NCBI RefSeq assembly: GCF_014633365.1
Contig: NC_068340.1
Location: 34,360,328-34,424,327 of the forward strand
DNA length: 64,000 nt
Direction: 5' to 3'
Source: Diospyros lotus
Taxonomy: Eukaryota > Streptophyta > Magnoliopsida > Ericales > Ebenaceae
This document shows, one piece after another, positions 1 to 64,000 of the stretch (its first letter is position 1; each line of letters opens with the position of its first letter). Below the pieces are notes generated by a model, which was given only the letters and a program-made list of their open reading frames with translations, had not been told where the DNA came from and ran no database searches. Made by a program: the position numbers and the translations under genes.

Positions 1-1813
1 GTATGCTTGTGCATGGCACCATTCGCTTTAACCTCTATTGTAAATGCTGCCAGATTTTGGTTTGTTTCGCGAGAGGCTGCCTTTTTCATGTCGAAATGTT
101 CCCTTTGACACAATTCACTCAGCTCCCTAATTGGATTCAATGGCAATGTTTCGGGTGTAACCAAAGGCTCCAGAAGAGGCCTTATGCTCTTGAAGACAGC
201 ATCTTTGTTGTACCCCGAATCAACAAGAATAGCCCCTGCAATAGATTCTATAATATCTGCAAGTACCTGCAACTCGTATCGTATGTATGGAATAAAACAT
301 TAAAAACAGCCTGCTAGATGTCAAGCTATGACAGAAAATGTAATCGAGATGTTTGCAAAAGTGAACACACTCTTTTACTCAAACTACTGTTCAACGAACA
401 TTACTTATATTTGACGAAAAACGTCATAAACACATGCTACATGTAAAACTTAACCTCCTTTTCATATCTACTTAGTATCCCTTTCTTCGCCTATAAAAAA
501 CTTCAATTAAGCAGTAAACAGTAGTTCAAAACTCTTTGGGACTTTTCAAGCGCCATCCCACTTTTACTAACATTTTATCATGTGACAAGATGGTGGGTCA
601 AAGCACTGTGTAAGTGTATTATAAACTCCATCTACAAGAAGAGCATAAGAGCAAAATGACCAAACATATATGTAATGAAGTATAACTTAATCTGAAATGA
701 AAAACAAAAGAAAGAAACTGAATTTGCAAAACAAAAACCAAAAATAAAAAATCGTTGTTTTAGGAGCTCCAACATCTTGACTTCACTTTTCAGAGAAATA
801 GCGAAAATAAGACATCATTTGATTATATCCTTTAATATAAATGTTGACACTGTACAGGCAAGGCAAATTTTACATACCAGGTTCACATCTTTTACAATGA
901 AATGAAACACACAGGTTACTAACCTATCAAGGTGCAAGCTCACTTTATTTAACAAACAGGCATCAATGCATCATCTTTCTTAAATATGAATTTAAAAAAA
1001 AAAAAAAAAAGATTGATGCCGATCAATGCGAGTCGTGCCATGCAATTCTGTTAGTATGATTTCCACAACTTAAGAAAAATTCTTCTCGAACAACCCTCTA
1101 AAATTAAAGGAAAGACTTTGGTCAGAAAAACTGAATGGACACAAAGATACTTCAAAAGTAACATGCGATTTCTAAATTCAGAAGTTGAAAGTTGGTGTGT
1201 GAAGTAAAGTTAATTTTGAAACCCAACTGGCACTAAACATCCCAAATTTCCTGGGGTTACATGATTAAATAATCAAATTAGCATCCACTTAAAATGACAC
1301 AATTTGAACTATTCCAAGTACTGAACTAAGTTAATCACTCCCAAAGATTTCAAATTTCCTAGGGTTCCATGATTAAGTTACAAAATTAACATATCCAATA
1401 ACATGATTTCAATTTATTACACAAGCTGCACCAAACTGAGGAAAATACAAGGAACAAATAGATTCCCAACACCAAAACTTGTTACCTTAGATCTGCTCAA
1501 ATATGAATTAACTGATATGTTTTGAAAGACTAACCTTTGGTAAAGTTGTTTCAGACTCCCATCCAAAAGTTGTTGCCGAAGATAACCGCTCAAAATTATG
1601 AGCCGCATTGTCTATCCGTCTGTGAAGCACTTGAGAGGAATGAAGAATGTGTCTGTGCAATCCAGCCTTGAGTGCAGATAGAGCGTAACAATCATTGTTC
1701 ACGGATGCTGATCTCAAATCAGTCAACAGCCCAGGTGACATTCCAGGATATTTCCGGTACATGTGCATGGTTATAAGATAATCCAACACTGAATCTCCAA
1801 GGAACTCTAGGCG
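1..1813 (-). other. Short DCL2 copy: RNase IIIb and partial dsRBD
   Basis: Exon 1813-1535 starts RLEFLGDSVLDYL (Glu601, Asp605). Exon 266 to the window edge starts VLADIIESIAGA (Asp695, Glu698) and enters the dsRBD at RELSELCQREHF. All four acidic residues of this RNase III centre are kept. The last codons and stop lie beyond position 1; this is truncation by the window, not by the genome. Confidence 0.8.
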
Positions 1814-4800
1814 CTGCTTCACAATGAAATTAAGAATTTAAAATATGATAAACCCAAATCAAACTACAGGATTGTATCATCAAAAGAAAGCGTCAATTGG
1901 AAATTAAAATATCACAACATCAAATAAACAAGCACCACAACCTCTGTCCCCATGCAGATAGGAACTATACACTAAGGGTTGAAGGTGATGTTGAAACAAG
2001 TGTGCCTGTGAATGTTACACTAATAGGAAACTCAGCGTGGATGTATCTGCTGTACAAATAGTTCAACGCAAAAAGAGAGAACTACCAATCATTCAATGCT
2101 ACTATTGCTTATAGTAATGTTCTTTAAATTTGTAATTAAGTCTACTAGATCATCAAATTGTCAGTGTCAATGAGTTGTTCAAACTTCAAATAGCACAGGA
2201 GCGAAGATGCTTTAAACAGTTCAGAAATGTTTGGTATATGTCATACACCCATACACCATTCAGAAAATCATAGAAATATTCAAACACAAACTGAAATATA
2301 TCTATTTAAATGTCTAAACGTGCAATAAATTTATAATATAAAAAAAGCTGAGATTTCCAAAGTTACTTGAAAACCAAAGGAAAACTTACAAAATAAAAAA
2401 AAAAAATCCAAATATAGCAAGTGTTTAAGATGCAAATAAAGTAGGAAATAAATTCTTTTATTTTCCAATTAGGTGAAGATTTGACAATCATATTTGCTAC
2501 ACGGTATCTAGTATTTCATCAAAATAAAAATAAAAATAGTAAACACCTTTACAAAGAATTCTAAATTCATAAAAACAACATATCAAGCCATTTATTCCAC
2601 TGCAAGGTTGACTACATGAATTCTAGCCTACAAATAATTTGTATCCCTTATAACTACCTAACAGTCTTGCACCAAGTTTTTCTTTGTTTCTATCTGCCTC
2701 TTTTGCTAAATACTTTCATTCCGTCCATTCTTCTCATAGGAGCCTCTATTCGTCTTCTCGTATAATCAAAATTCAAATTATCTTAACCATGTTATTCATT
2801 ATTTTCTCTCGATCTATTCTTTGTTCTTTATTTTCTTCAATTTGTTGTCACTGTGGAAACCTTAGATCCTTTTTTTCTAGAGTCAACACCTTCGATAACC
2901 ATCGCTAGTCCATTCAAAGTTCCATCCATGAAAATGCAAGAAACCTTTCGAAGTTAATACTATATTCGGAAGTTGATAGAGCAATTCTACTCAATTTTCA
3001 TTGCATTAGAGCAATGCAGCACATTGCTAAGAGTGTTCTGCCCAATAATCTGCTCATATGTCTAGAATTCATGTTGATTGATTCATCAAGATTTACTCCT
3101 GTTATGCCTACCTAACACCACCTTCCTCCTATCTAAATTCTTGTCAATAAAAATTATTATTTCAACACATTGTGCTGTATTCTATAGCACTTTACTATGT
3201 TTTTTAATGCTGCAACAGAAACATTAAAATTTCATTTCCTGACTAATTTTTCATTTTGACCTAAATAATGACATTAAACAATCAAAATGCCTGCATTCAA
3301 TGAATTAGCAAAGAGCAAAAAAAAGGATCATTGACGGTAAGCCACAACTAAGCAATAGAATGCTTTAAGGCGAATCTTTTTTACACACAATTTATGTTCA
3401 ACATAGGTGTAAAATTTAACTTAATGGATGAAGCACTAATACAAAGATACATTGTAAGAGTAAAGGCAAGTGACAGCATGTAAAAATATTTCCAAAAAAA
3501 AGGGCATCGATTTCCAACACCAATGACCTATCTTATGATTTACACAAAAATACCTGATAACATCTTGGAATGTAAGAGCCATGGGTTAGTGCTTCAACAA
3601 GCAAAGAAGGATCAAGGAATGAGTAGTTTAATAAGGATTCTAGACATTTGATATCAACATGCCTCTTGGGAACTTGAAATTGCCTCACATATGGTACATT
3701 GACTAAATCCACTTTTATACCCAGCCAATCCATCCATGACAAGGCTGCTTTTTCACCACCTGTGTTAAGGAATGCACCAATAAGTGCCTCCGCAGCATCA
3801 GCTACTTTTTTACTTTTTACTTTCCTTCTTCCCCGATTAAAGACTTTCATCCTTGCAGAAAGAAACTGTTCATCTAATGTATATTGTCCAGATCTATCAC
3901 CAGGAATTATCCACATTTTTGGATCAAAAGGTTCATTTCGAATGAATCCCTACGGTTAAAAGGTACAAAAGAAAAAACATAAGCTTACGAATCCTAGAAA
4001 ATACAAGATGAAAAACCCAAAATTAAAGTCAAACTGCAGGGGGAAAAAAAGAAGAAGCAAATCCAAGGAAATAGTTAAACTGATGGCACTTCTACCAAGC
4101 CCATCCATATTATGGACAGAAATAATTGGTAAAATATTACCGAAAGTTCGGAGTCACATCCAAGCCTGCACAGTACAGGATTAGAAATTATTTCCTTTCT
4201 CTTCTGACTGAGTAGTCCTTCATTTTGGTTTTGATAAGTTTTAAATAGCTGTTGACTGGAAGCATACTTAAGGAAAGAGTCCCCCAAAGTTGCCAGTGAT
4301 TTGAGATTAAATTCCTCTTGGCACTTTGCCGTTGTAATTGCTTCCAAGACCTACATGAATGTGTTAGGTGGGTTAGCAGAAGTGCAAGAGGAGATTCAGC
4401 AAAACAGAGGAAATTTAAATAATTAACCATATTATTAACCCAGAGAAAATTGTTGGTGATAACTAAGAAAACAGAAGTAAAACACAGCAGAGGGAATTCA
4501 CAAAATGGAGGCAAATCACAGATACTTTTTTATTGAGCTTGTTTAAATACATCAAACGTTAACTGAATTGCTACATAATTCATCCATAATGTCCTAAAGT
4601 ATAGGAACTAATTAACTGAAAAACTTCAACTACAGCTAAACAAAAAAACCATAACAGAAGCCTCAAACTTAGGACTGTAACTAACTATTTTATCAATTAA
4701 GTTAGCTACTTCTGCTCCTATTTTTCCTCTCTCAAAGCCAGCTATAAGAGAGATTTCCAGATTATCTTCAATTCTGCTTCAACGTCTTTACAGTTGCTGG

Positions 4801-7800
4801 GGCATTTTCAACATGAACAGTCAACAAGTCAAAAGAACACAGATCCTTGTTAATGAGACAAAAAGAAAAATGTACAGTAAGATACAGCAACAGAGTCAAT
4901 TCAAGGGAACCACATCATCTTGTATTATATACTAGTACAGGCACGACTTAGTCTGACCATATACGGACTCATTTCTTAATCATAAATCAAATCCAAAGCT
5001 TAAGAATAAGTCATCAATTTGTTAGAATAAGACCATTATTGTACATCAAGAACCAGTAAAATTGTCCCACCATACTTCAGCACGCCATAAGAGTTCAAAC
5101 ATCAATTGAAAAAGGGCATGTTATTTAAAGTGTGAACAGAGTAAAAACACATTGCTAGAGTGCATTTTTAGCGTTATTCAACAGTCACCGTAAAATAAAA
5201 TGGGACTTATAAAATAAGTCAGACCCAATACTTGAACAACTGTATGCAGTAATTGCCTTTTCATCGTCCGCACACAAGCATTGTACTGTCCATATGAAGA
5301 CACTGTGAGGTAACAGAGGAGCTTACCTTGGCAGTTGGAATAATAACATTTTGTGTGCAGCAATCTGCATACATCTTTTTCAAGTTGATAGCAAGAAGCA
5401 AACACTCGATCCGATGCATGATAGATGGCAGAAAAGAGAAAGAATATACGGTGCCAATGGATATAGGAGACATGATGACTACACAAAGTTCAGGAGGCAA
5501 TTCAACAAATGTGTTACTTGATCCTAGCAAAAAATAAAAATAAAAATAGAAGTTAGCCACAAATGAAAACACAAAATAATAACGATAAAAAAAAAAGAAA
5601 ACACAATAAAGAAATGAAAATGCATGAATTTCTTTGTGGGAAGATCTGGGCACTTATGTCAGAAAAAATTACAGTTTAATGGCACTCTTGACTTTTATTT
5701 GAATTTCAGTTTTCTTTGTTATCATTGCATAAAAATTTTCTTTTTTCTTTGACTCATGGAAGTTCATATATCTCACTTTGAGTTGTACTAATGGTCTCCA
5801 TAAATGATCCTCTGCATCTCTTGAACAAATGAACAAGCCAAATATGACTCTCCCTCCTTCACTTAAATACATGATCACCTGTCAGTGCACACCACCAAAT
5901 AACAGCATCTTCTACTCTCACAAGCAGCAACACCATCATTTCCTCTCCTTCCCTCTCCTAGCATACCCAACTAACACCACAAGAGGCCCCACTCTTTTTC
6001 CATCTTTGCAGGCACCACCCTCATCATCTGAAGTTCCCAACCACTATGCACTATTAGCAGAATCATATGGAATATACGCACCCACACACATTTATGTGGG
6101 TAAAACATATCCATTGCCACAGTTGGTAGCAACAAAATTTGAATGATCTTTTATCTAGGTCTACCCCCTGGGCTAATAATAGTGAGGACAATGTGATGCT
6201 AATAGTAACTACAACTTCAATCACCCTCCAAAAGGAAACGTCAGGTACTTCTGCACTCATAATTCAACCAAGCTTGCACTCACAATTCAACCCAACCACT
6301 GTGACTATAATCAACACAAGTTGTTAATACCGTCTAGGACTGGACTTTATACACAGGCAGGTAGATATAGATTAATTGACAATTGATTCATGTTGTGTTT
6401 TACTCATCAGGTAGAGGAGCTGGAGCAGCAGATGGACACATACAAGTTTAGGCGTGTCTATTTGTGACGGCCTATAAGACACATCACCATCATGTGACCA
6501 GTGGCAGTGACTTAAGTTCAGCCAACTGTCAATGCTTTTATTAGGCTTTTTTGTTTGGTGATTGGTACTTTTTAATTGTAATATGATTTATTAGCCAACC
6601 CTGCCTAGTGAGATCCTGTGATTGTGTTATTGTTGTAATATGATGTATTAGATCTATGACATTTTTTTTATTTATGAATTCATTCATTTTGCACGCTGAA
6701 TTATCTTTTTAATTTACTATATATGTAACAAATAAAAATACCATGTTTTGCACCCTTGATTCTATATTGCCATTTTTTACATGTCACATCTGAATCTACC
6801 ACCCCCATGACCATCTTTATCCATATCCACACCCATGTTTCTTTGGTGGAGATCCTCAACACAATGTGAGGGTGCCACCATACTTATTGTGGCAGGGGAT
6901 GGTGGCAAGGAAATGAAATACCAGCAGTGATCCCAAGGAATCGGTGTCCTCTACCATACAGCCACTTCCCTCACAAGCAGCCAATCCAATGCTTTAATGG
7001 CAATGATTGGAGTGTTGGTTGAGAGGAGTTAGTGGGTTGGCAGGTGGTTGCCAGCCAGGGAGATTGTGGATAGGGAAGTAAGCAGTTAGAGAGATGAGTG
7101 AGGAGTAAAGAGAATAAAATGAAAATACGAAAATATAAAGTGGCCAGTAGAGTGCAACCAATTGAATTAAAGCTGCCACATAGTTTACACAGACAAGAGT
7201 TAACCATAAAGCCTAGTGAAAAAAAGGCCCTTCGCATTCTTTCTTCACCCAAATACTAACAAGGGGTACAGATGTATTACCAAAAGGCCTCAGGAGAGAT
7301 GGTTGTAAATTATGCTATTTGATTAGGAAGAAGACACATGAAAAGTGAACAAGACCTTAGAGAAGCAAGAACAAAAAATACCATCATGCAAAATAAAATG
7401 CATCTCATAAAGAAGATCCAACATATATAATCTTCTTTCTTTTTCTTTTTTTGTCATGCTTCCTCCATAATGAAAAAAAAAGAATTATGTTCTCCAACAT
7501 ATCATACTAGATATCTTTAATTGCCTTGGGAAACTAAGACAATGTCCATAATACTACTTAATTGTGTTAGGCATCTTTGCAATATTAAAGAGGCGTAGAG
7601 TTACAACAGAGCATGTCAAGGTCTTATAATTAGCCTACAGACTTCTACTACCAATTTCCATTCGAGAAATGGCAACTACTTTATTGCGAGTGACGGTCTT
7701 AGTCCGAATGGTTGGTGAAAGTAGTGCAAAATATCAGGTCATGAGCAAGAACCCATCCTTTCATTCCTATAAAATCTTATTTATAAGATAATGATCAGAT

Positions 7801-9306
7801 AGATTCAATGGATAGATATAGTCTTTCATAGATAGAGAACACATAGAGTAAGGCAGAAAGCAATATAACCTCTCTCTTTGAGTTGCCCAAGCCTCTGAAG
7901 ACAATTTTTCACAGGAAATACAGGTTTTCCTTTAAGCAACAATTCCCCTTCAAAGCACAAGTCAATTCCATGCCTGTGATTAAGAATAGGATACAGTTAC
8001 TATTTTTTCTGTTCACTTAACAAAAATACCAGTTACCTGTTTCAGAGAAACTAACGAAGGCCATCATATCTATTAACAACAGAGACATTAAAATGAATAT
8101 TTTTCACAAACCGTAATTTATAGTGTTGTTTGTAAGTAATGGCTTTCCCATTCCGCATCCCAAGCAGCGAGTTCCCATCCAGATTATCTAAAGTTCCAGT
8201 GATACAATAAAGAGAACCATTATGAGGCGTGAGTACCAAGGAATTTTCCAACATGCAGCTGCACACCAAATCATTCTTAGTATGCACAAGGTGGCCAGAA
8301 CACTTGGGAGGATAACCGCATGTATGATTATCCCTGAATTTTGCCCATGGAAAAATCACAGAACACACACATTTCCAATTGATAATCGATGGATTTTGAG
8401 ATGGACCACTACAGGGGAGCAAGAGATAGTCTACCATAAATTCTTTCCCTTTCCCTGAATTAACTGCACCCAAAGCCTCCTTTAACTTATTCAAATTGTG
8501 ATCAAAAAGAACTCGGAAAAGGGTGATCTGAAACCTTTGGCATAGAAGCACCTGTCAAGAAAGTTCAATAATCAAAAAATAATCTATGCAAATATTTCTT
8601 CAGACAGATTAATTATCTCAAAAAAAGTCGCGAACGTACAATGTGTGCAGTACCTGTTCAGAACTAAGGCTTATAATGCCAAGATGTTTCACCCTCACAG
8701 ATAAAATGCCCTTATTAAGTTCTAAATCAAAGGCCACCTTTTCATCGTCAAACTCAAGCTCATTCATCACCGCAAGTGCAATATGATGAAGTGGGGCATC
8801 ATACTCAAAGTTCCTCTGTAACTCAATCAAGTACAAATGGAGTAACCTTGTAGAATTGTTTTCACAGTGACCAACCAATTCGGGCGGGAAGTAGTTAGCT
8901 TGATTATCAACATACAATTCACAACCTAGTACATCACGATATTCTTAATTAAAAGTTAAATTAAAAAGTTCATATAAGAATGAAAATAATACATTGAATA
9001 TTACAAATTACCCAAACCGCGTGCATCAGCTTCATCCGCAACAATATCTGGCACTAGATTATCAGTTGATGCACCACTCTGATGAAGCTTTTTGCCCACC
9101 TCTGAGCACGCAAGTTGGTTCAGAGTTCTGACAGTGCCTTTCACACTAACAGGTTGCAGGTTGAAACTATTAAGGAATCTCAATAAGGAAGCAAGGAATA
9201 TACAAGTTCATGGCAACACAATAGAAATTAGTTCAACCCAGCATACATAATTGAAAACAAACAAACTAGACTACTTTAAACCAAGAAAATAAACAAACCC
9301 ATCCAT
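1..9306 (-). CDS. Helicase-less DCL2 paralogue, open reading frame kept (3' end off window)
   Basis: Second DCL2 copy, in tandem behind the first. Proposed exons: 9306-9299, 9178-9012, 8925-8654, 8551-8112, 7973-7870, 5523-5327, 4350-4141, 3949-3554, 1813-1535 and 266 to beyond 1. Phases agree at every junction and no stop occurs, giving 779 residues inside the window and about 805 expected in total. Order: MDG fused to the C-terminal part of DUF283, PAZ, RNase IIIa, RNase IIIb, start of the dsRBD. The helicase is absent because the start codon is joined to the end of the DUF283 exon. Coding length differences from the full copy (-60, +6, -15 nt) are all multiples of three, which suggests a maintained protein. 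RNase IIIa looks inactive (Lys413, Ala416). Most likely a neofunctionalised or regulatory Dicer fragment; the alternative is a young pseudogene not yet interrupted. Confidence 0.85.
2572..3220 (-). mobile_element. RTE-type LINE 3' remnant in an intron of the short DCL2 copy
   Basis: The left edge is AACAACATATCAAG, the reverse complement of a TTG-rich LINE tail. It is followed by sequence matching the 3' end of the larger LINE in the corresponding intron of the full copy, at the same position relative to the exons. The insertion therefore predates the DCL2 duplication. The middle, including the reverse transcriptase, has been lost here. Confidence 0.55.
3554..5523 (-). other. Short DCL2 copy: RNase IIIa with altered active site
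   Basis: Residues 331-598. Exon 5523-5327 keeps VELPPELCVVIMSPISIG. In exon 4350-4141 the signature reads KSLATLGDSFLKY: Lys413 and Ala416 stand where the full copy has Glu, while Asp420 remains. Asp517 and Glu520 of VADAAEALIGA are present. The Glu to Ala change removes a residue that coordinates the catalytic metal in RNase III enzymes, so this half-site should be inactive. The exon also lost four residues (MLPE of the full copy) just before RNase IIIb and one in the PVQPERH stretch. Confidence 0.8.
5630..6385. other. Copy-specific insertion in an intron of the short DCL2 gene
   Basis: Between matching intron sequence (ATGCATGAATT before, TTGATTCATGTT after) the short copy carries about 750 bp that the full copy lacks. 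It has short open frames on the plus strand but no domain, terminal repeat or target duplication that I can recognise. Confidence 0.45.
6780..7260. repeat. Intron segment shared by both DCL2 copies
   Basis: Contains GGTGGAGATCCTCAAC and CTTATTGTGGCAGG, both matched at 19,310-19,370 in the same intron of the full copy. It is a conserved-by-descent intron block; I do not recognise a transposon family in it. Confidence 0.4.
8112..9178 (-). other. Short DCL2 copy: residual DUF283, platform and PAZ start
   Basis: Residues 3-295. The first sizeable exon (9178-9012) lacks the 60 nt that encode YFKPSP and the following residues in the full copy and starts at FLNSFNLQPVSVKG. The next exon (8925-8654) keeps NYFPPELVGHCENNSTR, and the PAZ exon (8551-8112) keeps VLLCQRFQITLFRVLFDH, DYLLLPCSGP and HTKNDLVCSCMLENSL. 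Dimerisation through DUF283 may be weakened because its N-terminal half is gone. Confidence 0.8.
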
Positions 9307-9920
9307 TCGTTTTTTCCTGTTTTTCCTTTTTCCTTTCGCGCGCTTCTTCCTCGGTGCGTGTCCCTTAAAAGACCACCTGTGAACACAAACATCAGAGCAG
9401 CTTTGGATAACATGGGACAAATTCTATCTAGTTTCCGTACAAAAACAAATGCATTTATACAGCATCTTTCTTCCCCTGCGTTGTAGGGTGGTTCGTCGTT
9501 TCCTAAGATCGCGTATCAAGAAAACCCAGCACTAGATTAATCCAATCCCAAAATGCATTTCCCAGGACAGGAAGAGAAATGGTTAAATGGAGAAACTCAC
9601 AGAGAGTACTCATACACTTTGGCGAGCACTCGGTAGTAGCACGTACTAGCACCAGAATACAACAATCTAAATGCTAACCCAACAGAGACAACTAGAGAGA
9701 GAGAGAGAGAGAGGGAGGGAGTGCGTGTTACTCCAACTGCGGTACTACGTACCGCTTGACGAAGAAAGCACAATTGAGGCCACTGTCGCAATGCTTCGCG
9801 ACCAAGAAACTTGCGAGAAAGCAAGAGAGAACTGCAAGTGGTAAGGAAGCTAAATCGTACAAACAAGGTTCAGCAACAATACTAATAATAATAATAATAA
9901 TAAAAGCAATGAAAAGACGC
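9299..9920 (-). promoter_or_regulatory. Retained DCL2 promoter, 5'UTR intron and reconstituted start of the short copy
   Basis: The leader matches that of the full copy, including a 224-nt 5'UTR intron (GTGAGT donor at 9600, TTCACAG acceptor ending at 9377) and a GA-rich run at 9,691-9,718. The coding start is the ATG at 9306, followed after only 8 coding nt by a GTTTGT donor that is the original donor of the DUF283 exon. The next exon uses a new TTATTGAG acceptor (9180-9179), which restores frame. An additional upstream ATG at 9613 is not present in the full copy. Confidence 0.7.
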
Positions 9921-28300: not shown

Positions 28301-31300
28301 TTCTAATCTGAAAAAGTTGTTGTAATCTAGACCTAAATTTTAGGAGATTTTCTAGGAACTTTTGTCTCACATTAATGAAATTCATGGAAATTACTTCCTC
28401 CCATTAGAACTTCTACTCAGTTTATTTTTCATGGTATCAGAGCCACGGGTCCATGGCAAGTTTTCCTATCTTTTCTCCTCCTCCAAAGTCTTTAGACTCC
28501 TTTCAGCTTACAATATGGCTGAAAATCAAAAAATAAGCGATGCTTCGACCATTTTTCCTCCTCCAGCAAGGAATACACAAGTTCTATCATCTCCAATCAC
28601 TTTAGACAGCCATTCCCTTCAGATCACTCAGCATAAATTGAATGGAACCAACATTAGATAATGGTTACAGTCAGTTTTATTAGTGATCCTGGGAAAAGGC
28701 AAAGTTGGTTACCTAACAGAGACAGTCTCTAAGCCAAGCATAGATTCAGCTAACTACGGTGTGTGGGAGGCTGAAAACTCAATTGTGATGGCATGGCTGG
28801 TCAATTCTATGGAACCAAGGAATGGAATGACTTATCTATTCTATAGGACAGCTCAAGAGATATGGGACATTGTGTTAGAGATCTACTCAGACATGGTGAA
28901 TATAGCCCAAAATTTTCAGATTCGGTCTACAATTCGCTTAAGGTACTACCTTTTCGCTTAAGGCTAGTATTTGCTTAGAGTTTTCTTCTGTTCTAAGTTC
29001 CGTAGGTTTAGGATTATCAGGGTCAAATTTAATCTCTTCAATTAATATTTTAACCTGCTCTTTTAACCTACTCATCTCACCAATTAGCTCCTTATTTTGC
29101 TTTTTGGTATATTGATCAATAGCTTGTTTGATCTCTTGCAGACATCAAATTAATTAATTCCTGCTACACAATAAATGGCCACAACAGATAAGTATTGTGA
29201 CCTGTTTATTGAGGGTGAATAAGAAATTGAGGGAAATAAATTTTGCTTATATATATTTATTTCCCTCGAAATCCTCTGATGTAAATCTGGCAGTTGCATT
29301 TGAAGTGGTCAGCACAGTGCACCAAAGGGGCCAGTGCACTACAGCAGAAATTCAATATATATTTATCTGTTGTGGTTATTTGTTGTGTAGAAGGAATTAA
29401 TTAATTTGATGTGACCTGTGCAATTCAGCAAGATAATATATCTATATATATATATATATTGAATTATAATGCATGTGGTCATTTGGTGTAGCCTGCACAA
29501 AGGAATTTAACATATTTTAATGGCAGTGCATGAATTAATTACAAGGGCCGCCCACTGCCATTATGCAAATTGAATATCAAATATGCAGTGGCCATGCACT
29601 ATGTACATTGCCAATTCCAACCAGCCATCTATAAATTGGAAATTGCAACAGTTTGAGGTCAAGGACGTGTTCTTACATGGCCATCTTTAGCAGGAGATCT
29701 ATATGCAATTTCTAGCCTAAGTTGGCAGCCAAAGATAATAGCCCTCTCAGAGTGTTCATTTTAGCCACTGGAGCAGATGTCTCAAGATAATACACTCCAT
29801 ACGTTTTTGTGCATCCTTTAGCAACTAATCTTGCTTTCTACCTTTCTAATGACCCGTCTGATCTATACTTAAACATGAATACCCATTTGCATCCCATTGG
29901 GTTCTTCCCCTTCTTTGGATCAAAGACATGGGAAGATGTGGTGTGCAAATTAAAATAGGCCCCATATGGATTGAAACAGTCTTAGTCTCTAAGACAATGG
30001 TTTGGCAATTCACCAAGGTCATGTTTGGTATGGGATATAAACAGAGCTAAGGTGATCATACTCTGTTTGTAAACCACTCAGCCTCAAGGGGAGTGACTGC
30101 ATTGCTAGTAATGGTAACTGGAGATGATATAGACAAACAACAACATATCCAGCCTTTATTCCACTATGTGGGGTCGGCTACATGAATTCTAGACTTCCAT
30201 GTATTTCTGTCTTTTGTCATATCCTCATTTAGATCCATATATTTAGATGATATAGACAGAATGGGAAAATTAAAAAGCTGCTTGGTCAAAGAAGTTGAGA
30301 TTAAGGAGCTAGGCAGGTTAAATTATTTTTTGGGTATTGAGGTGGCACACACTAAGCAAGGGATCTTCATATCCCAAAAGAAGTACATCCTAGACTTGTT
30401 GACTAAAACTAGTAAATTGGGAAGTGAAGCTACTAATACGCCCATGGAGCCTAATCATCGACTTGGAGAAGTCCCAAAAGATGGCACAATGGATAAAGGT
30501 TCCTTTCAGAAACTTGTTGGGAGGCTTATTTATCTGTCACATACGAGACTAGACATAGCTTATGTCGTGAGTGTGGTAAGTCAGTTCATGCATAATCTTA
30601 AAGAAATACATCTCAAAGCAGTACCCAAGATCCTGCAATGTTTAAAGGGGATACCAAGCAAAGGAATCTTCTTTAAGAAAGGGGAAGAGTTGCCTCTTGA
30701 GGCCTATACTGATGCAGACTATGCAAGGTCAATTGTTAACAAAAGATCAATATCGGGCTACTAGACATTTCTAGGAGGTAATCTCATGACTTCGAGAAGT
30801 AAGAAACAGAATGTTACAAGACCGATCAAGCACAGAAGCCAAGTTCAGATCAATGGCCCAAGGAATATGTGAATTATTATGGCTCAAGATAATCTTGGAA
30901 GACCTAAAAATCAAGTGGAAGGAACCTATGAGGTTCAACTGTGACAAAAAGTCAGTTATCAACATTGCTCATAACCCTGTACAACATGATTGAAAAAAAC
31001 ATGTTGAAGTTGATAGACACTTCATAAAGGGGAGAAACTTGATAGCAGCTTAATTTGCACCCCATTTGTGTCCACCAGTGATCAATTTGATGACTCACAC
31101 AGGGACTTCCCAGCACCATGTGACAAAAGATTAATGTGCAAGATTGGAATGCAAGACATTCACTCACCATCTTGAAGGAAAGTGTTAAAAAATACAATTT
31201 TCTTATTGTAAGAAATCATATTCTATTAGGGATTTCATTCAGTTTATTCTCTCTATTCTTTGTTTCCTAATTTTGGTAGGCTTAATTATAGGAAATTAAG

Positions 31301-41416: not shown

Positions 41417-42060
41417 TTTTTTCTTTTTCCTTTTTCTTTGCGGTTCTTTCTAGGTTTTTCTCTTAAAACAACGCCTGTGAACGCAAACATCACTTCAGCT
41501 TCGAATAACAGTGGGACGAATTCTATTTGGTTTCCACACACAACAAATGCATTCACAGAGCATCTTTCTTTCTTTGTGTTGTAGGGTGGTTCGACATACA
41601 GCTGAGGTCGCATATCAACAAAACCTAAATTGCAGATTAATCCAATACCCAAAATCAACGCACATCACAGCAAGAGAATCGAGAAACTCACAGAGAATAA
41701 TCGAAAGGTCTGGCGAGCCCTCAGTTGTAACACGTACTAGCACCACAAAACAACGACATCAAAAGTGCCGCTCTCTGTATCTCCAGCGCAACCCCAAACA
41801 CAGACAGCAGAGAGAGAGAGAGAGAGTAAAGAGCGAGTGTCCGTTACTCGGAACAGGCTGCCAAGAAGAACGCACTTTTAAAACCACTGCTCTATAGCAT
41901 GCTTGGTTACCAAGCAAGAAACCTGCGAGAAATACACAGAAAGCTGTAAAGCAATAAGCGAAAGCGCACAAAGTAGGGTCAGTCATTATAGTCAAAAAGC
42001 AATGAAAAGACGCTCTCTCACCCACTGAGAATGATATGTGTACTATATATATATATAGAG
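41346..42060 (-). promoter_or_regulatory. DCL2: Promoter, 5'UTR and 5'UTR intron of DCL2 copy 1
   Basis: A 217-nt leader intron is predicted from a strong GTGAGT donor (41691) to a TTCACAG acceptor (41475), placing the second leader exon at 41474-41417. A (CT/GA)n run lies at 41,811-41,831. A minus-strand TATATATA stretch at about 42,038-42,052 is a plausible TATA region. The stretch 41,346-42,010 aligns by eye with 9,299-9,920 in front of the downstream copy, so both genes inherited the same promoter. Confidence 0.6.
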
Positions 42061-52399: not shown

Positions 52400-53960
52400 A
52401 AGGAATTTTGTGGATAATAGAAACATTAATTAACAAATGAAAAGGTAAACAATAACTTAAAATCTAACTAAACCATTTAAAAAATTTAAAACAAAATCCA
52501 CACGAAAACATGCAAAAACATAAATTGCACTAAATACTAAATAAAAAAAATAGAAGATTAGCGAACAACTTAAAGCACACATCTTGAACCCGAAAGAGCA
52601 TCCGAAAATGGGGGCTTAAAACTAATTGACAGAATTTGTAGAATTAAATAAAGCAATAGTAACACACATGTATCAAAAAAACAACAGTAATATCTAGAAA
52701 CTAAATAAAGTAGAAAAAAAAAGGCTATCGAACAACTAAAACCACAAAATCCATAGCCAAAGGAATGTAAGAAAACAATAAATAAATAATACTAATCTAT
52801 ATGAAATAAAGACTAAGCAACAGAATCTATAAAAATTAAAGAAAATATTCTGTAAAGTAAAAAATTAAAGAACATATTTTGTAATACATATGTATCAAAG
52901 TAAACAACACTAATGTATAGAAATTTTTGAAAAAAATTACAAAAAATATTTTGTAATACAAAAAACAACACTAATCCACACAAAATAAATAAAAAAATTT
53001 ACAGAAACAATTAAGAGCACACATACAAAACACGAAAAATATTTAAAGGGAAAAACATAAAATATTTTGTAATACAAAAAACAACACTAATCCACACAAA
53101 ATAAAAAACAAATACAGAAATGATTAAAAGCACACATGCAGAACACGAAAAATATTTAAAAAGAAAAAAAAACTAAAATAACATGTATTCAAATAAAAAA
53201 ACACAAAAAATATAAAAATTGGACGATAACAGAAAATTAAAATAATAAAAGAAAGCTTAAAATAACTAAAGAAAGCAAACAACACTAATGTACACAAAAT
53301 AATTTTAAAAAAAATGAATAATTAAAAGCACATAACTTTATCCCAAAATCATGTAAAAAATAAACCTAAATTAACATGTAATACAATAAGCAATGCGTAA
53401 AAAAATACAAAAGTTACACAATAACAGAAAAAAAAAGAATAAATGATAACCAACCTCTTTATTCTGAAATATGCATTCAAGGTTATACGTTTTTTTTTTT
53501 ATTTTCACGTGCAGTTGTCTCATATGTGCGTATCACACGAACCCTCAAGGCTTAGTTTTTCTTAATTGCATTCACATCCCTCACTTGATAGAATAGTGGT
53601 GTTATGTTACACCCGAAGACCAAATTGGGTAAAAAAAATACGGTTAAAATTTACTGAATAAAAGAAAAGAAGAAGGGAAAATTTGAGAAGAAAAATTGAG
53701 GAAGGAGAAGAGAGGAAATGAAAGGGTTGAACAGGAATTGAGGGGAATAAGAGAGATATATATTTGCTTTTTTTTTATTAATTTTTTTCCTTCAAATTCT
53801 CCTATTTTTCTCAATTTATCAAATCACATGCCACTATTAAGTTTTTATTTTTCTCACGTTTTGCCACACAATCTGAATCTTACTCACTTAACATAATTTT
53901 CAAAACATAAATTTAATTTGTATTTAATTTCCCCAAGTCCAACATATAGCACATCTTAGG
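52400..53960. repeat. A-rich low-complexity stretch with 118-bp repeats
   Basis: AATATTTTGTAATACAAAAA with the following CAACACTAATCCACAC occurs near 52,944 and again near 53,062, giving a period of about 118 bp. The rest is A-rich with no gene signature. Confidence 0.5.
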
Positions 53961-55080
53961 AGTAGACTAATGGGAAAAATGAGAATTAAATAAATGATAA
54001 TAATCAATTAAGTTGAAAAATAAAATCATGATATTTAAAATTATAAAAAATAAATTTAAATTAATTAAATTGTATGTAAAATAAAGATAATTTAAATAAT
54101 CAATTAATTGTATAAATGATAATAATCAAAATTTTAAAATTAATTATTCATACATGACTTTACATATTTATTCTAGCAATCAATTATCACATTTAAAACA
54201 GATTAAATTTTTAAGGAAGTAACAAAAAAAATAAAAAATAAAATTTTAACATTTAAGTTATATATAAAATTATAATATTTAAAATTATAAGAAACTAAAT
54301 TTAAATTAATTAAACTATATATAAAATAAAAATAATTTAAATAATCAATTAATTATATAAATGATAATAATCAAATTTTCAAAATTGATTATCCATATAT
54401 GACTTTACATATTTCTCCTGGCAATCAATTATCACATTTAAAACAGGTCACATTTTTAAGAAGTAACAAAAAAAAATAATAAAGTTGAAAAATAAAATTA
54501 TAACATTTAAGTTATATATAAAATTATAACTTTAAAAATATACAAAATAAATTTAAATTAATTAAACTATATATAAAATAAGGATAATTTAAATAATCAA
54601 TTAATTATATAAATGATAATAATCAAATTTTTAAAATTGATTATCTATACATGACTTTACATATTTCTCCTGAGAATCAATTACCATATTTAAGACAGAT
54701 CAAATTTTTAAGAAAGCAACAAAAAAAGAAAAAAGTTAAAAAATAAAATCATAACATTTAAGTTATATATAAAATTATAAGAAAATAAATTTAAATTAAT
54801 TAAACTATATATAAAATAAAGATAATTTAAATAAATAAATAATTATATAAATAATAATAATCAAAATTTTAAAATTGATTATCGATACATGACTTTATAT
54901 ATTCCTCATAGAAATCAATTATCATATTTAAGACAGGTCACATTTTTAAGAAAGCAAGAAAAAAATAAAGTTAAAAAATAAAATTATAACATTTAATTTA
55001 TATATAAAATTATAACATTTAAAATTATAAAAAATAAAATTTAATTAATTAAACTATATATAAAATAAAGATAAAATAAA
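53960..55080. repeat. AT-rich tandem array, about 245-bp unit
   Basis: The marker ATGACTTTACATATTT and the block AAATTAATTAAACTATATAT recur with spacing of roughly 240-250 bp (markers near 54,154, 54,398, 54,650 and 54,889), giving more than four units. Units differ by small indels. No coding capacity is seen. Confidence 0.75.
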
Positions 55081-56845: not shown

Positions 56846-59800
56846 GTCATCGGGTTTTGTGGGGCCATGAAACCTGATTTTTTAATAAAAATGATTTTTG
56901 TTTTTTGGCAATGGGAATTTTCAATGTTGCCCAATAAAAAATAATGTATTTTTACATTTGTTGACTTGATTAAATTTATAATTCACAAAAAATAACAATG
57001 GAATGATAATAAAACACAACCAATACATAATTAAGTGTTCTAACTACTAACAACATTAGATTAAATTGATGTAATGATTACAAAATTTATCCAAAAATAA
57101 AAGTATAATTTTTAAACAATAATTTATTTTTGGAACTATTGAATAACTTGGAAAACTCCCATGGCCAAGAAAAGAAAAAAATGATAAAAATAACCATTTT
57201 AATAAAAAAAATCGGGCTTTGTGGGGCCACAAAACCTGATTTTTTAATAAAAATCATTTTTTGATCTTTTTTTTTTTTTTTGGCCATGGGATATTTCAAA
57301 GTTACCCAATAAAAAATGATGTATTTTTACATTTTTTGGCTTAATTGAATTTATAATTCACAATAAATAACAATGGGATGATAATAAAACATAACCAATA
57401 CATGATTAAGTATTCTAACTACTAACAATATTGGATTAAATTGATATAATGATTATAAAATTTACCCAAAAATACAAGTATAATTTTTAAACAATAATTT
57501 ATTTTTGATACTATTGGATAACTTGGAAAAATACAATAGCCAAGAAAAGAAAAGAAAAAAATCAAAATAACCATTTTAATAAAGAAAATCGGGCTTTGTG
57601 GGGCCACAAAACCCGGCTCGGGTTTTGTGGGGCCATGAAATCTGATTTTTTAATAAAAATTATTTTTTGATATTTTTTTTTGCCATGGGATATTACAAAA
57701 TTATCCAATAAAAATAATGTACTTTTACCTTTTTTGACTTGATTAAATTTATAATTCACAAGAAATAACAATGGAATGATAATAAAACACAATCAATACA
57801 TGATTAAGTGTTCTAACTACTAACAAAATCGGATTAAATTGATGTAATGATTATAAAATTTATTCAAAAATAAAAGTATAATTTTTAAACAATAATTTAT
57901 TTTTGGGACTATTGAATAATTTGAAAAAATCCCATGGCCAAGAAAATAAAAAAAGGATAAAAATAACCATTTTAATAAAAAAAAATCAGGCTTTGTGGGG
58001 CCACAAAACCCAGCCCGGGTTTTGTGGGGCCATGAAACCTGATTTTTTAATAAAAATGAATTTTTTGATCTTTCTTTTTTGGGGGGCCATGGGATTTTTC
58101 AAAGTTACCCAATAAAGAATAATGTATTTTTATATTTTTTGACTTGATTAAATTTATAATTCATAAGAAATAACAATGGAATGATAATAAAACACAACCA
58201 ATACATGATTAAGTGTTCTAACTACTAACAATATTGGATTAAATTGATGTAATGATTATAAAATTTATCTAAAAATACAAGGATAATTTTTAAACAATAA
58301 TTTATTTTTTGGACTATTGAATAACTTGGTAAAATCCCATGGCAAAGAAAGGAAAAAAAAAAGGTATACAAATAACCATTTTAATAAAAAAAATCGGGCT
58401 TTGTGGGGCCACAAAACCCGGCCTGAGTTTTGTGGGGCCATGAAACATGATTTTTTAATAAAAATGGATTTTTTGATCTTTTTTTTTTCGGCCATCGGAT
58501 TTTTCAAAGTTAGCCAATGAAAAATAATGTATTTTTACCTTTTTTTGACTTGATTAAATTTATAATTCACAAGAAATAACAATGGAATAATAATAAAACA
58601 CAATCAATACATGATTAAGTGTTATAACTACTAACAACATTGGTTTAAATTGATCTAATGATTATAAAATTTATTCAAAAATAAAAGTATAATTTTTAAA
58701 CAATAATTTATTTTTGGTACTATTGAATAACTTGAAAAAATCTTATGGTCAAGAAAAGAAAAAAAATGATAAAAATAACCATTTTAATAAAAAAAAATCG
58801 GGTTTTGTGGGGCCACAAAACTCGGGCTCGGGTTTTGTGGGGCCATGAAACTGATTTTTTAATAAAAATGAATTTTTTGATCTTTTTTTTTTTTTTGAGC
58901 CATGGGATTTTTCAAAGTTACCCAATAAAAAATAATGTATTTTTACCTTTTTTGACTTGATTAAATTTATAATTCACAAGAAATAACAATGGAATGATAA
59001 TAAAACACAACCAATACATGATTAAGTATTCTAACTACTAACAACATTGGATTAAATTGATGTAAAGATTATAAAATTTATCTAAAAATAAAAGTATAAT
59101 TTTTAAATAATAATTTATTTTTGGAACTATTGAATAACTTGAAAAAATCTCATGGCAAAGAAAAGAAAAAAAAAGGATAAAAATAACCATTTTAATAAAA
59201 AAAAAATCGGGCTTTGTGGGGCCACAAAACCCGGCTCCGGTTTTGTGGGGCCATGAAACCTGATTTTTTAATAAAAATGAATTTTTTGATCTTTTTTTTT
59301 TTGAGCCATGGGATTTTTCAAAGTTACCCAATAAAAAATAATGTATTTTTACCTTTTTTGACTTGATTAAATTTATATTTCATAAGAAATAACAATAGAA
59401 TGATAATAAAACACAACCAATACATGATTAAGTGTTCTAACTACTAACAACATTGGATTAAATTGATGTAATGATTATAAAATTTATTCAAAAATAAAAG
59501 TATAATTTTTAAACAATAATTTATTTTTGAGACTATTAAATAATTTGAAAAAATCTCATGGCTAAGAAAAGAAAAAAATGGATAAAAATAACAATTTTAA
59601 TAAAAAAAATCGGGTTTTGTGGGGCCATAAAACCCGGCCCGGGTTTTGTGGGGCCATGAAACCTGATTCTTTAATAAAAATGTATTTTTTGATCTTTTTT
59701 TTTTGCCATGGGATATTTCGAAGTTACCCACTAAAAAATAATGTATTTTTACCTTTTTTTGATTTGATTAAATTTATAATTCACAAGAAATAACAATGGA

Positions 59801-62800
59801 ATGATAATAAAACATAATCAATACATGATTAAGTGTTGTAACTACTAACAACATTGGATTAAATTGATATAATGATTATAAAATTTATCCAAAAATAAAA
59901 GTATAATTTTTAAACAATAATTTATTTTTGGGACTATTGAATAACTTTGAAAAATCCCATGGCCAAGAAAAGAAAAACAAGGATAAAAATAACCATTTTA
60001 ATAAAAATAATCGGCCTTTGTGGGGACACAAAATCCGGGCCAGGTTTTGTGGGGCCATGAAACCTGATTTTTTAATAAAAATAAATTTTTTGATCCCTTT
60101 TTTTTTTTGTTTTTGGGGCCATGGGATTTTTCAAAGTTACCCAACAAAGAGTAATGTATTTTACATTTTTTGACTCGATTAAATTTATAATTCACAAGAA
60201 ATAACAATGGAATGATAATAAAACACAACCAATACATGATTAAATGTTCTAACTACTAACATTATTGGATTAAATTGATGTAATGATTATAAAATTTATC
60301 TAAAAATAAAAATATAATTTTTAAACAATAATTTATTTTTGGGACTATTGAATAATTTGGAAAAATTCCATGGCTAAGAGAAGAAAAAAAAAGGATAAAA
60401 ATAACAATTTTAATAAAAAAAATTGGGCTTTGTGGGGTCATAAAATCCGGCCCGGTTTTGTGGGGCCATGAAACCTGATTTTTTAATAAAAATGTATTTT
60501 TTGATTTTTTTTTTGGGCCATGGGATATTTCAAAGTTACCCAATAAAAAATAATGTATTTTTACCTTTTTTGATTTGATTAAATTTATAATTCACAAGAA
60601 ATAACAATGGAATGATAATAAAACATAATCAATACATGATTAAGTGTTCTAACTACTAACAACATTGGATTAAATTGATGTAATGATTATAAAATTTATC
60701 CAAAAATAAAAGTATAACTTTTAAACAATAATTTATTTTTGGAACTATTAAATAACTTTAAAAAATTCCATGGCCAAGAAAAGAAAAAAAAAGGGATAAA
60801 AATAACCATTTTAATAAAAAAAATCGGGCTTTGTGGGGCCACAAAACCCGACCCGGGTTTTGTTGGGCCATGAAACCTGATTTTTTAATAAAAATTAATT
60901 TTTTGATCCTCTTTTTTTTTTGGGCCATGGGATTTTTCAAAGTTACCCAATAAAAAATAATGTAATTTTACATTTTTTGATTTGATTAAATTTATAATTC
61001 ACAAGAAATAACAATGGAATGATAATAAAACACAACCAATACATGATTAAGTGTTCTAAGTACTAACAACATTGGATTAAATTGATGTAATGATTATAAA
61101 ATTTACCCAAAAATACAAGTATAAATTTTAAACAATAATTTATTTTTGGTACTATTGAATAACTTGAAAAAATCTTATGGTCAAGAAAAGAAAAAAATGA
61201 TAAAAATAACCATTTTAATAAAAAAAATCGGGTTTTGTGGGGCCACAAAACTCGGGCTCGGGTTTTGTGGGGCCATGAAACTGATTTTTTAATAAAAATG
61301 AATTTTTTGATCTTTTTTTTTTTTTGAGCCATGGGATTTTTCAAAGTTACCCAATAAAAAATAATGTATTTTTACCTTTTTTGACTTGATTAAATTTATA
61401 ATTCACAAGAAATAACAATGGAATGATAATAAAACACAACCAATACATGATTAAGTATTCTAACTACTAACAACATTGGATTAAATTGATGTAAAGATTA
61501 TAAAATTTATCTAAAAATAAAAGTATAATTTTTAAATAATAATTTATTTTTGGAATTATTGAATAACTTGAAAAAATCTCATGGCAAAGAAAAGAAAAAA
61601 AAAGGATAAAAATAACCATTTTAATAAAAAAAAATCGGGCTTTGTGGGGCCACAAAACCTGGCTCGGGTTTTGTGGGGCCATGAAACCTGATTTTTTAAT
61701 AAAAATGAATTTCTTGATCTTTTTTTTCTTGAGCCATGGGATTTTTCAAAGTTACCCAATAAAAAATAATGTATTTTTACCTTTTTTGACTTGATTAAAT
61801 TTATATTTCATAAGAAATAACAATAGAATGATAATAAAACACAACCAATACATGATTAAGTGTTCTAACTACTAACAACATTGGATTAAATTGATGTAAT
61901 GATTATAAAATTTATTCAAAAATAAAAGTATAATTTTTAAACAATAATTTATTTTTGAGACTATTAAATAATTTGAAAAAATCCCATGGCTAAGAAAAGA
62001 AAAAAATGGATAAAAATAACAATTTTAATAAAAAAAATCGGGCTTTGTGGGGCCATAAAACCCGGCCCGGGTTTTGTGGGGCCATGAAACCTGATTCTTT
62101 AATAAAAATGTATTTTTTGATCTTTTTTTTTTGCCATGGGACATTTCGAAGTTACCCACTAAAAAATAATGTATTTTTACCTTTTTTTGATTTGATTAAA
62201 TTTATAATTCACAAGAAATAACAATGGAATGATAATAAAACATAATCAATACATGATTAAGTGTTGTAACTACTAACAACATTGGATTAAATTGATATAA
62301 TGATTATAAAATTTATCCAAAAATAAAAGTATAATTTTTAAACAATAATTTATTTTTGGGACTATTGAATAACTTTGAAAAATCCCATGGCCAAGAAAAG
62401 AAAAACAAGGATAAAAATAACCATTTTAATAAAAATAATCGGCCTTTGTGGGGACACAAAATTCGGGCCAGGTTTTGTGGGGCCATGAAACCTGATTTTT
62501 TAATAAAAATAAATTTTTTGATCCCTTTTTTTTTTTTTGTTTTTGGGGCCATGGGATTTTTCAAAGTTACCCAACAAAGAGTAATGTATTTTACATTTTT
62601 TGACTCGATTAAATTTATAATTCACAAGAAATAACAATGGAATGATAATAAAACACAACCAATACATGATTAAATGTTCTAAATACTAACATTATTGGAT
62701 TAAATTGATGTAATGATTATAAAATTTATCTAAAAATAAAAATATAATTTTTAAACAATAATTTATTTTTGGGACTATTGAATAATTTGGAAAAATTCCA

Positions 62801-64000
62801 TGGCTAAGAGAAGAAAAAAAAAGGATAAAAATAACAATTTTAATAAAAAAAATTGGGCTTTGTGGGGTCATAAAATCCGGCCCGGTTTTGTGGGGCCATG
62901 AAACCTGATTTTTTAATAAAAATGTATTTTTTGATTTTTTTTTTGGACCATTGGATATTTCAAAGTTACCCAATAAAAAATAATGTATTTTTACCTTTTT
63001 TGATTTGATTAAATTTATAATTCACAAGAAATAACAATGGAATGATAATAAAACATAATCAATACATGATTAAGTGTTCTAACTACTAACAACATTGGAT
63101 TAAATTGATGTAATGATTATAAAATTTATCCAAAAATAAAAGTATAACTTTTAAACAATAATTTATTTTTGGAACTATTAAATAACTTTAAAAAATTCCA
63201 TGGCCAAGAAAAGAAAAAAAAAGGGATAAAAATAACCATTTTAATAAAAAAAATCGGGCTTTATGGGGCCACAAAACCCGACCCGGGTTTTGTTGGGCCA
63301 TGAAACCTGATTTTTTAATAAAAATTAATTTTTTGATCCTCTTTTTTTTTTGGGCCATGGGATTTTTCAAAGTTACCCAATAAAAAATAATGTAATTTTA
63401 CATTTTTTGATTTGATTAAATTTATAATTCACAAGAAATAACAATGGAATGATAATAAAACACAACCAATACATGATTAAGTGTTCTAAGTACTAACAAC
63501 ATTGGATTAAATTGATGTAATGATTATAAAATTTACCCAAAAATACAAGTATAAATTTTAAACAATAATTTATTTTTGGGACTATTGGATAACTTGGAAA
63601 AATCTCATGGCCAAGAAAAGAAAAAAAAAGTATCAAAAAATCCATTTTAATAAAAGAAATCGGGCTTTGTGGGGCTATAAAAGCTTATTTTTTAATAAAA
63701 ATGGATTTTTTGATTTTTTTTTTGGCCATGGGATTTTTTAAATTTACCCAATAAAAAATGATGTATTTTTACATTTTTTGGCTTGATTGAATTTATAATT
63801 CACAATAAATAATAATGGATTGATAATAAAACACACACAACCAATACATGTTTAAGTGTTCTAACTACTAACAACATTGGATTAAATTGATGTGATGATT
63901 ATAAAATTTATCCAAAAATATAAGTATAATTTTTAAACATTAATTTATTTTTGGGACTGTTGCGTAACTTGAAAAAATTCCATGGCCAAAAAAAGAAAAA
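56846..64000. repeat. Satellite array of about 405-bp units built on a long inverted repeat
   Basis: About 18 units run to the window edge; centres fall near 57,615, 58,013, 58,420, 58,821, 59,231, 59,636, 60,035, 60,447, 60,853, 61,253, 61,664, 62,064, 62,464, 62,875 and 63,283. Each full unit has the core TTTGTGGGGCCACAAAACCC and CCGGGTTTTGTGGGGCC. Outward from the core, TCCCATGGCC on the left pairs with GGCCATGGGA on the right, and CCATTTTAATAAAA pairs with TTTTAATAAAAATG. The arms reach roughly 100 bp each side. The remaining 160 bp or so is a unique spacer (AACAATGGAATGATAATAAA). Units near 57,225 and 63,670 carry one core motif instead of two. Short ORFs with similar peptides on both strands follow from the symmetry and are not genes. 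Confidence 0.88.
58700..63570. repeat. Higher-order repeat: six-unit, 2.43-kb block in two near-identical copies
   Basis: Unit variants recur in the same order 2,428-2,430 bp apart, for example starts of identical variant segments at 59,578/62,006, 59,928/62,356 and 60,758/63,188. The block boundary falls near 61,130. Within a block the units differ clearly from each other, so this is a recent segmental duplication by unequal exchange. Confidence 0.8.

Follow-up and report, generated by a model that had tools for sequence, protein, structure and literature searches.

The window analysed here, 64,000 nucleotides of contig C3 from Diospyros lotus (C3:34360328-34424327), lies in a tandem cluster of genes for the plant Dicer DCL2. 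DCL2 produces 22-nt small interfering RNAs (siRNAs) that amplify silencing, and plants must restrain its activity. Four copies, A to D, lie in this cluster on the contig, and one of them, copy B, encodes no helicase. Here we describe the structure of copy B, the selection that has acted on it, and its relationship to other DCL2-like proteins. By sequence comparison, copy B is one of several independent eudicot cases in which a helicase-less DCL2 copy has lost the same RNase IIIa glutamate. The four copies are as follows, in window positions unless the contig is named.

Copy A: 41416-11394, minus strand; full length, annotated as protein P0015.
Copy B: from 9306 leftward, ending 108 bp outside the window, minus strand; short copy, helicase-less.
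Copy C: about 12-30 kb left of the window start; full length.
Copy D: near C3:34.69-34.74 Mb, plus strand; full length, annotated as protein P0002.

Structure of copy B

In tblastn with the 1401-aa Actinidia protein P0001, residues 1-1398 are matched by copies A and C and residues 24-1396 by copy D, whereas copy B matches only residues 594-1398; the helicase parts of A, C and D are placed by these matches. Between the end of copy A and the start of copy B, tblastn found no helicase exon at E 1e-4, and neither PF00270 nor PF00271 (DExD/H and Helicase-C) was found by Pfam in the copy B protein. The 124 kb surrounding copy B are continuous and free of N bases, which speaks against an assembly error at the junction.

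A sequence-only reading of this stretch had proposed that copy B joins the DCL2 start codon to the donor of the DUF283 exon. This junction is borne out: copy B at 9306-9299 reads ACGA-ATGGATGG/GTTTGT, running directly into a donor that begins at 9298. In copy A, exon 1 starts ATGGAG (41416) and the DUF283 exon ends GATGG/GTTTGT (21915), and about 19.5 kb of copy A are missing from copy B. The junction does sit in shared bases, as had been proposed, but the strict overlap is 2 nt (left ATGGA, right GATGG, shared GA) and not the four bases ATGG; of the DUF283 exon only the final bases GATGG remain. The exon after the junction, 227 nt in copy A (21788-21562), is 167 nt in copy B (9178-9012), having lost 60 nt (20 codons) together with the old acceptor, and a new acceptor, CTTATTGAG/A, opens it in frame at 9178, with a further in-frame AG 12 nt on (exon from 9166). 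The spliced frame is indeed open from 9306 through PAZ and both RNase III domains, to a TAG stop 108 bp left of the window, and its nine coding introns are each GT-AG. The indels that set its shared coding region apart from A and C (an insertion of 6 nt in exon 4, deletions of 3 and 12 nt in exon 8, and several changes in the last exon) leave it open, and the open reading frame (ORF) comprises 811-821 codons depending on the acceptor used, 815 being likeliest. For exon 3 the probable start is 8925, not 8943: this is the acceptor used in both D. lotus proteins annotated here, P0002 and P0015. The leader and leader intron of copy B match copy A as claimed, but a promoter retained beyond the leader is not borne out, since the likeness to A fades above about 9920. 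The parts of copy B, all on the minus strand, are listed below.

9307..9920, minus: 5' leader with leader intron 9600-9377, from alignment with A and D; blastn matches 9310-9663 to 41417-41754 at 75%.
9299..9306, minus: coding exon 1, ATGGATGG, in which the start codon runs straight into the final bases of the DUF283 exon; its donor is GTTTGT.
9012..9178, minus: coding exon 2, encoding late DUF283; it is 60 nt shorter than its counterpart in A and has a new acceptor (or, still in frame, one that starts the exon at 9166).
8654..8925, minus: coding exon 3 (an alternative acceptor would extend it to 8943).
8112..8551, minus: coding exon 4, PAZ region, with a 6-nt in-frame insertion relative to A and C.
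7870..7973, minus: coding exon 5, PAZ.
5327..5523, minus: coding exon 6, linker from PAZ to RNase IIIa.
4141..4350, minus: coding exon 7, RNase IIIa signature, with AAA (Lys) at 4302-4300 and GCA (Ala) at 4293-4291.
3554..3949, minus: coding exon 8, remaining RNase IIIa (second-motif D and E kept) and the start of IIIb; a 12-nt deletion near 3572 removes MLPE.
1535..1813, minus: coding exon 9, RNase IIIb signature RLEFLGDS, intact.
1..266, minus: coding exon 10, IIIb second motif (D and E intact) and C-terminus, extending 108 nt beyond the window start to TAG.

The RNase IIIa lesion

Pfam recognizes PAZ in copy B (PF02170, 2.8e-9, residues 252-376 of the 821-aa model) and RNase III in two stretches (PF00636). 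The Dicer_dimer family (PF03368), found in P0015 and P0001, was not detected in copy B at E 0.001; late DUF283 alone is encoded, and half of the domain is missing. At the same threshold the dsrm family, which stands for the C-terminal double-stranded-RNA-binding domain, gave no match in copy B and weak values in P0001 (4.4e-4) and P0009 (3.9e-4).

The RNase IIIa signature of copy B reads KSLATLGD, where A, C and D read ESLETLGD. The codons concerned, AAA at 4302-4300 and GCA at 4293-4291, are GAA and GAG in A, C and D and encode there the two signature glutamates, which are also kept in DCL1, DCL3 and DCL4 of solved structures; the sequence-only reading had missed these changes. By alignment and RNase III numbering, the second of these glutamates is the first of the four EDDE acids; the residue labels 38, 41, 45, 114 and 117 follow E. 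coli RNase III. A study of coffee (PMC5407642) gives EDDE as the RNase III catalytic set. In copy B the first catalytic acidic residue of IIIa is changed from Glu to Ala, the other three IIIa acids are kept, and all four acids of RNase IIIb (E, D, D, E) are present. A review (PMC7827160) assigns the cutting of one strand to each RNase III domain; with one site lost, copy B would make a one-strand cut at most, and its sequence predicts no more than one of the two cuts.

Loss of the same glutamate in other eudicots

Three protein searches, with the best 120 of each retained, gave 221 distinct DCL2-like proteins, which with copy B were aligned as 222 rows. A row was called short if it has fewer than 230 residues ahead of the motif YFPPELV, and 57 of the 222 are short; short and long counts are not frequencies, since the search with P0009 as query left out 1400-aa proteins by length. 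The IIIa glutamate is lost in 12 of the 54 short rows with a letter at that position and in 1 of 159 long rows (P0055), rows with a gap there (3 short, 6 long) being outside these counts. The single long exception has neither helicase motif, and its precomputed Pfam list is without a DEAD domain. When rows are classed by exact motif, so that variant motifs score as absent, the glutamate is lost in 13 of the 73 with neither Walker A nor DECH (12 Ala, 1 Gly) and in none of the 107 with both; rows with one motif show no loss either (0/21 and 0/12; 0/140 with one or both). Copy B and 12 other proteins of the 222 thus combine the absence of a helicase motif with a replaced IIIa glutamate, and they include proteins from Cornus, Coffea, Penstemon, Melia and Escallonia. 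All 54 short rows that have a letter at the Asp of this IIIa motif retain it. In the first motif of IIIb, every one of the 57 short rows has the Glu and 56 have the first Asp, P0142 carrying His instead.

The exceptional P0055 is a DCL2-like gene model from Escallonia rubra. By eye, roughly the first 60 residues look like those of a Copia retrotransposon protein, and its IIIa signature reads NSLATLGD.

Trees were built from 139 and from 43 of the 222 rows, hand-picked to thin isoforms and near-duplicates, with P0011 scored short although part of its helicase is kept. Copy B branches within DCL2 beside its own species' copies in both. In the 139-row tree, made without the catalytic columns, most short forms adjoin the full-length DCL2 of their own genus or family, and the helicase state changes 25 times by length or 33 times by exact motif, a number that is not firm in a quick FastTree phylogeny with some weak branches and partial models. 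The helicase-less form is not unique to this locus; on the DCL2 tree it arises many times. Parsimony counts 7 changes of the glutamate in each of the two trees.

The search for a like fusion in relatives, proposed with the sequence-only reading, returned helicase-less DCL2-like proteins from many eudicots, with junctions at differing places. Several begin with a start like that of DCL2 exon 1 and then jump to late DUF283 or beyond. Read by eye, the junctions are MESAGMENNGTQ-QELGNE in Cornus, MEVDRPQ-DNLVPD in Castanea, MENS-ALTDNLVPD in Penstemon and MEAPE-IVPD in Actinidia rufa; exon-1-like fused starts also occur in Gossypium, Prunus, Lonicera and others, and the short N-terminus of Carya and Juglans differs. 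An artefact of assembly or annotation is a very improbable explanation of copy B. Many of the short proteins are gene models of unknown quality, and four of the 57 short rows (P0110, P0161, P0189 and P0195) look partial rather than fused by eye. The DNA of copy B, however, is gapless, tblastn at E 1e-4 gave no helicase exon between it and the end of copy A, and two coffee short copies, DCL2.4 and DCL2.6, are described as expressed in PMC5407642.

A single origin of the Glu-lost short forms was considered and rejected. The approximately unbiased (AU) test rejects one clade of the 10 Ala rows tested (p 2.5e-41), as well as a grouping of copy B with Cornus (1e-90) and a grouping of six asterid rows (5e-72), with the caveat that the group was picked by the trait, whose columns the tree leaves out. 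A related explanation is that the Glu-lost helicase-less proteins are one old shared paralog, made locally similar to full-length neighbours by gene conversion. Such a history fits the KSLAT sequence common to Diospyros, Cornus, Melia P0134 and Penstemon, and conversion may happen at this locus: over 62 codons of the IIIb exon (1535-1813), identity between copies B and C rises to 95%. Of the 11 other windows, 10 stand at 81-91% and one at 75%, which hints at gene conversion between these tandem copies. Yet the trees place each protein beside the full-length DCL2 of its relatives, the groupings are rejected, the N-terminal junctions differ among lineages, and long non-coding stretches of copy B align with copy A at about 70-80%. 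We regard the old-paralog history as quite unlikely.

A scan covered 248 columns in which at least 90% of the long forms agree. Next after the glutamate came two columns in a tie, both of them altered in 6 of the 8 Glu-lost groups. The first is the neighbouring glutamate, which is Lys in Diospyros, Cornus, Melia P0134 and Penstemon, Thr in Coffea and Asn in Escallonia, and departs in 2 of 45 Glu-keeping short rows. The second, position 1184 of P0001 (Leu changed to Arg or His, or deleted), was set aside as a linked site because Arg also occurs there in full-length Paulownia and Erythranthe and in the Glu-keeping short forms of Lonicera and Juglandaceae. The extra amino-acid change of short copies in five Glu-lost lineages gathers in IIIa, with 108:39 there, 173:110 in PAZ and 88:55 in IIIb (IIIa against the rest, p 0.009), and in ten Glu-keeping lineages it is not concentrated in IIIa (p 0.57); both sets of lineages were hand-picked following a first look at 26 triples.

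Selection on copy B

The four copies were aligned over 744 codons, in which copy B has no stop or frameshift. The ratio of nonsynonymous to synonymous substitution rates (dN/dS) by branch is 0.32 for A, 0.54 for B, 0.31 for C and 0.41 for D. The value for copy B, with a 95% bootstrap interval of 0.39-0.75, reaches 1 in 0 of 500 resamples, and as a branch average it blends the time before the deletion with the time after it. On a simulated neutral B branch of 309 substitutions the mean number of stops is 9.7, and none of 2000 runs stayed free of them. By part, PAZ of copy B stands at 0.42 (sisters 0.31-0.43) and IIIa at 0.78 (confidence interval, CI, 0.43-1.61; sisters 0.21-0.33). The dN/dS of the downstream exons as a whole, suggested as a check by the sequence-only reading, stays below 1, and the relaxation of copy B lies in IIIa.

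These results bear on the proposal that copy B is a natural minimal Dicer, one that dices actively without a helicase in the manner of Giardia. Its PAZ and two RNase III stretches are recognized by Pfam, many short forms elsewhere keep both sites by sequence, and Giardia Dicer is described without a helicase domain in passages of PMC7827160. Copy B, though, has lost a IIIa glutamate that 158 of 159 long rows keep, the exception being the motif-less P0055; both signature glutamates that A, C and D keep are replaced, selection on IIIa is relaxed, and half of DUF283 is gone. The minimal-Dicer proposal does not stand up well to these observations, and we consider it improbable.

Other features of the locus

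Further DCL2 fragments lie around copy D, at C3:34681940-34685651 (pieces in both orientations) and C3:34754285-34768878, and the cluster consists of four copies and broken pieces. Inside the span of copy A, an ORF at 30261-30764 resembles, by eye, part of a Copia-type retrotransposon polyprotein. A tandem array of a 407-bp unit occupies 57212-63682 (16 copies, 90% matches), AT-rich tandem arrays lie at 54000-55074 and 52921-53172, and an Rfam scan of the window at gathering thresholds gave no match.

Discussion

The observations described above are consistent with copy B being a helicase-less DCL2 paralog that looks protein-coding, in which the IIIa half-site is off, PAZ and IIIb are kept, and the likeliest role is regulatory; we hold this to be an evenly balanced proposition. 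Its sequence shows that a large deletion in the tandem cluster joined the start codon to the DUF283 donor, and that the 60-nt loss shifted the next acceptor. The predicted fold, PAZ with paired IIIa and IIIb domains, would bind the ends of double-stranded RNA (dsRNA) and cut one strand or none; lacking a helicase, the protein should not travel along long dsRNA. It could compete with the full-length enzyme for dsRNA or short duplexes, which would limit the output of 22-nt siRNAs, or, in an alternative role, it might nick instead of dicing.

Extended to the wider set of proteins, the same idea is more tentative. Eudicots may repeatedly build a regulatory half-Dicer from DCL2 duplicates, in which the helicase is lost, often by fusion of the start exon to late DUF283 or a point after it, and IIIa Glu then changes to Ala, often with the neighbouring Glu to Lys. 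Because neutral and basic side chains replace metal-binding acids, such a protein may grip duplex RNA without the IIIa cut and act as a brake on DCL2 or as a strand-nicking partner. The order of events may be loss of the helicase, then of IIIa, and sometimes of IIIb third. Two observations suggest this order: many short forms keep their IIIa and IIIb residues, and among rows with a helicase motif the IIIa glutamate is lost in none. Should these proteins work as brakes or nickases, a modulator of silencing would be built into many plants, with its genes perhaps classed as partial in annotation, and the repeated loss of one catalytic residue offers a direct route to testing the half-Dicer idea. 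It also cautions against equating the count of DCL2-like genes with the count of dicing enzymes.

A number of observations weigh against a regulatory copy B and against its wider form. Among proteins, the IIIa glutamate is kept in 42 of the 54 short rows with a letter there. The sign test on independent pairs is not significant at its median in either form. By the length criterion, under which the Glu-lost, motif-less P0055 counts as full length, it gives 5-6 pairs for, 1 against and 15-16 without difference (median p 0.22), and by the motif criterion 4-7 for, 0 against and 22-25 without difference (median p 0.0625). Retention of IIIb is not general, because five Glu-lost proteins carry IIIb changes: E117K in P0183, P0199 and P0214 (Coffea) and D114N in P0122 and P0127 (Melia). 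These five, changed in both RNase III domains, are possibly wholly inactive Dicers. For copy B itself, dN/dS lies above the sister mean (1.8% of resamples are at or below that mean), which also fits slow decay, and in the part comprising IIIb and the dsRNA-binding domain it is 0.58 (CI 0.33-0.96), beside 0.28 for A, 0.35 for C and a poorly determined 0.85 for D. An upstream ATG at 9613-9611 in the leader of copy B is absent at the same place in A, and its frame, spliced by hand and judged by eye, overlaps the main start. No entry near-identical to copy B appears among the best 120 of 502 protein matches (452-1437 aa), though A and D are present; an entry for copy C is likewise unrecognised among the matches listed, though C is intact across the shared region.

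Several of these points suit a slowly decaying pseudogene, in which a deletion disrupted a tandem duplicate, the frame is open by chance and catalytic residues are starting to go: the elevated dN/dS, a IIIa part whose interval spans neutrality, the missing entry and the upstream ATG. The 744 uninterrupted codons, the GT-AG introns and a PAZ as constrained as in the sisters speak for something other than decay, and the loss of the same glutamate in several lineages, while the Asp of that motif is kept in every short row with a letter there, is unlike random decay. We judge the pseudogene explanation unlikely, though the most serious of the alternatives. Copy B is more likely a half-armed regulator, the reading we prefer, or a decaying copy than a minimal Dicer, as far as its sequence allows.

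Among the open-licence papers listed by partly narrow queries, no title or abstract describes a recurrent helicase-less, IIIa-damaged DCL2. Copy B would belong to a recurrent class apparently not described as such, of which coffee short copies are already in print as "partial". Both RNase III sites of Giardia Dicer are active. That enzyme resembles copy B in having no helicase (PMC7827160), but it is not a DCL2 paralog, and in copy B the loss of the IIIa glutamate leaves the two sites, by sequence, not both intact. In common bean, passages of PMC8774654 record three DCL2 paralogs, two of them in tandem, with DCL proteins of at least 1388 aa. Medicago MtDCL2c, according to passages of PMC4833791, is like copy B a truncated DCL2 paralog; it is expressed, and the authors discuss regulation by truncated Dicers. 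Unlike in copy B, its helicase is not lost, and a stop in RNase IIIb removes the C-terminal end. For coffee, a 2017 study (PMC5407642) recorded short DCL2 copies that lack the helicase, DUF283 or full EDDE residues and presented them as partial sequences; CcDCL2.2-CcDCL2.6 share with copy B the short form without a helicase. They were treated there as partial or incomplete in one species, and by the tree their origin is independent of copy B; Coffea proteins read TSLATIGD, where the letter is shown, against KSLATLGD in copy B, and three of them also carry the IIIb change E117K. With canonical plant DCL2 (A, C, D and P0001) copy B shares its exon structure from late DUF283 on, PAZ, two RNase III domains and its position in the DCL2 tree, and it differs in having no helicase, half of DUF283, the IIIa changes Glu to Ala and Glu to Lys, and a four-residue loss before the IIIb signature.
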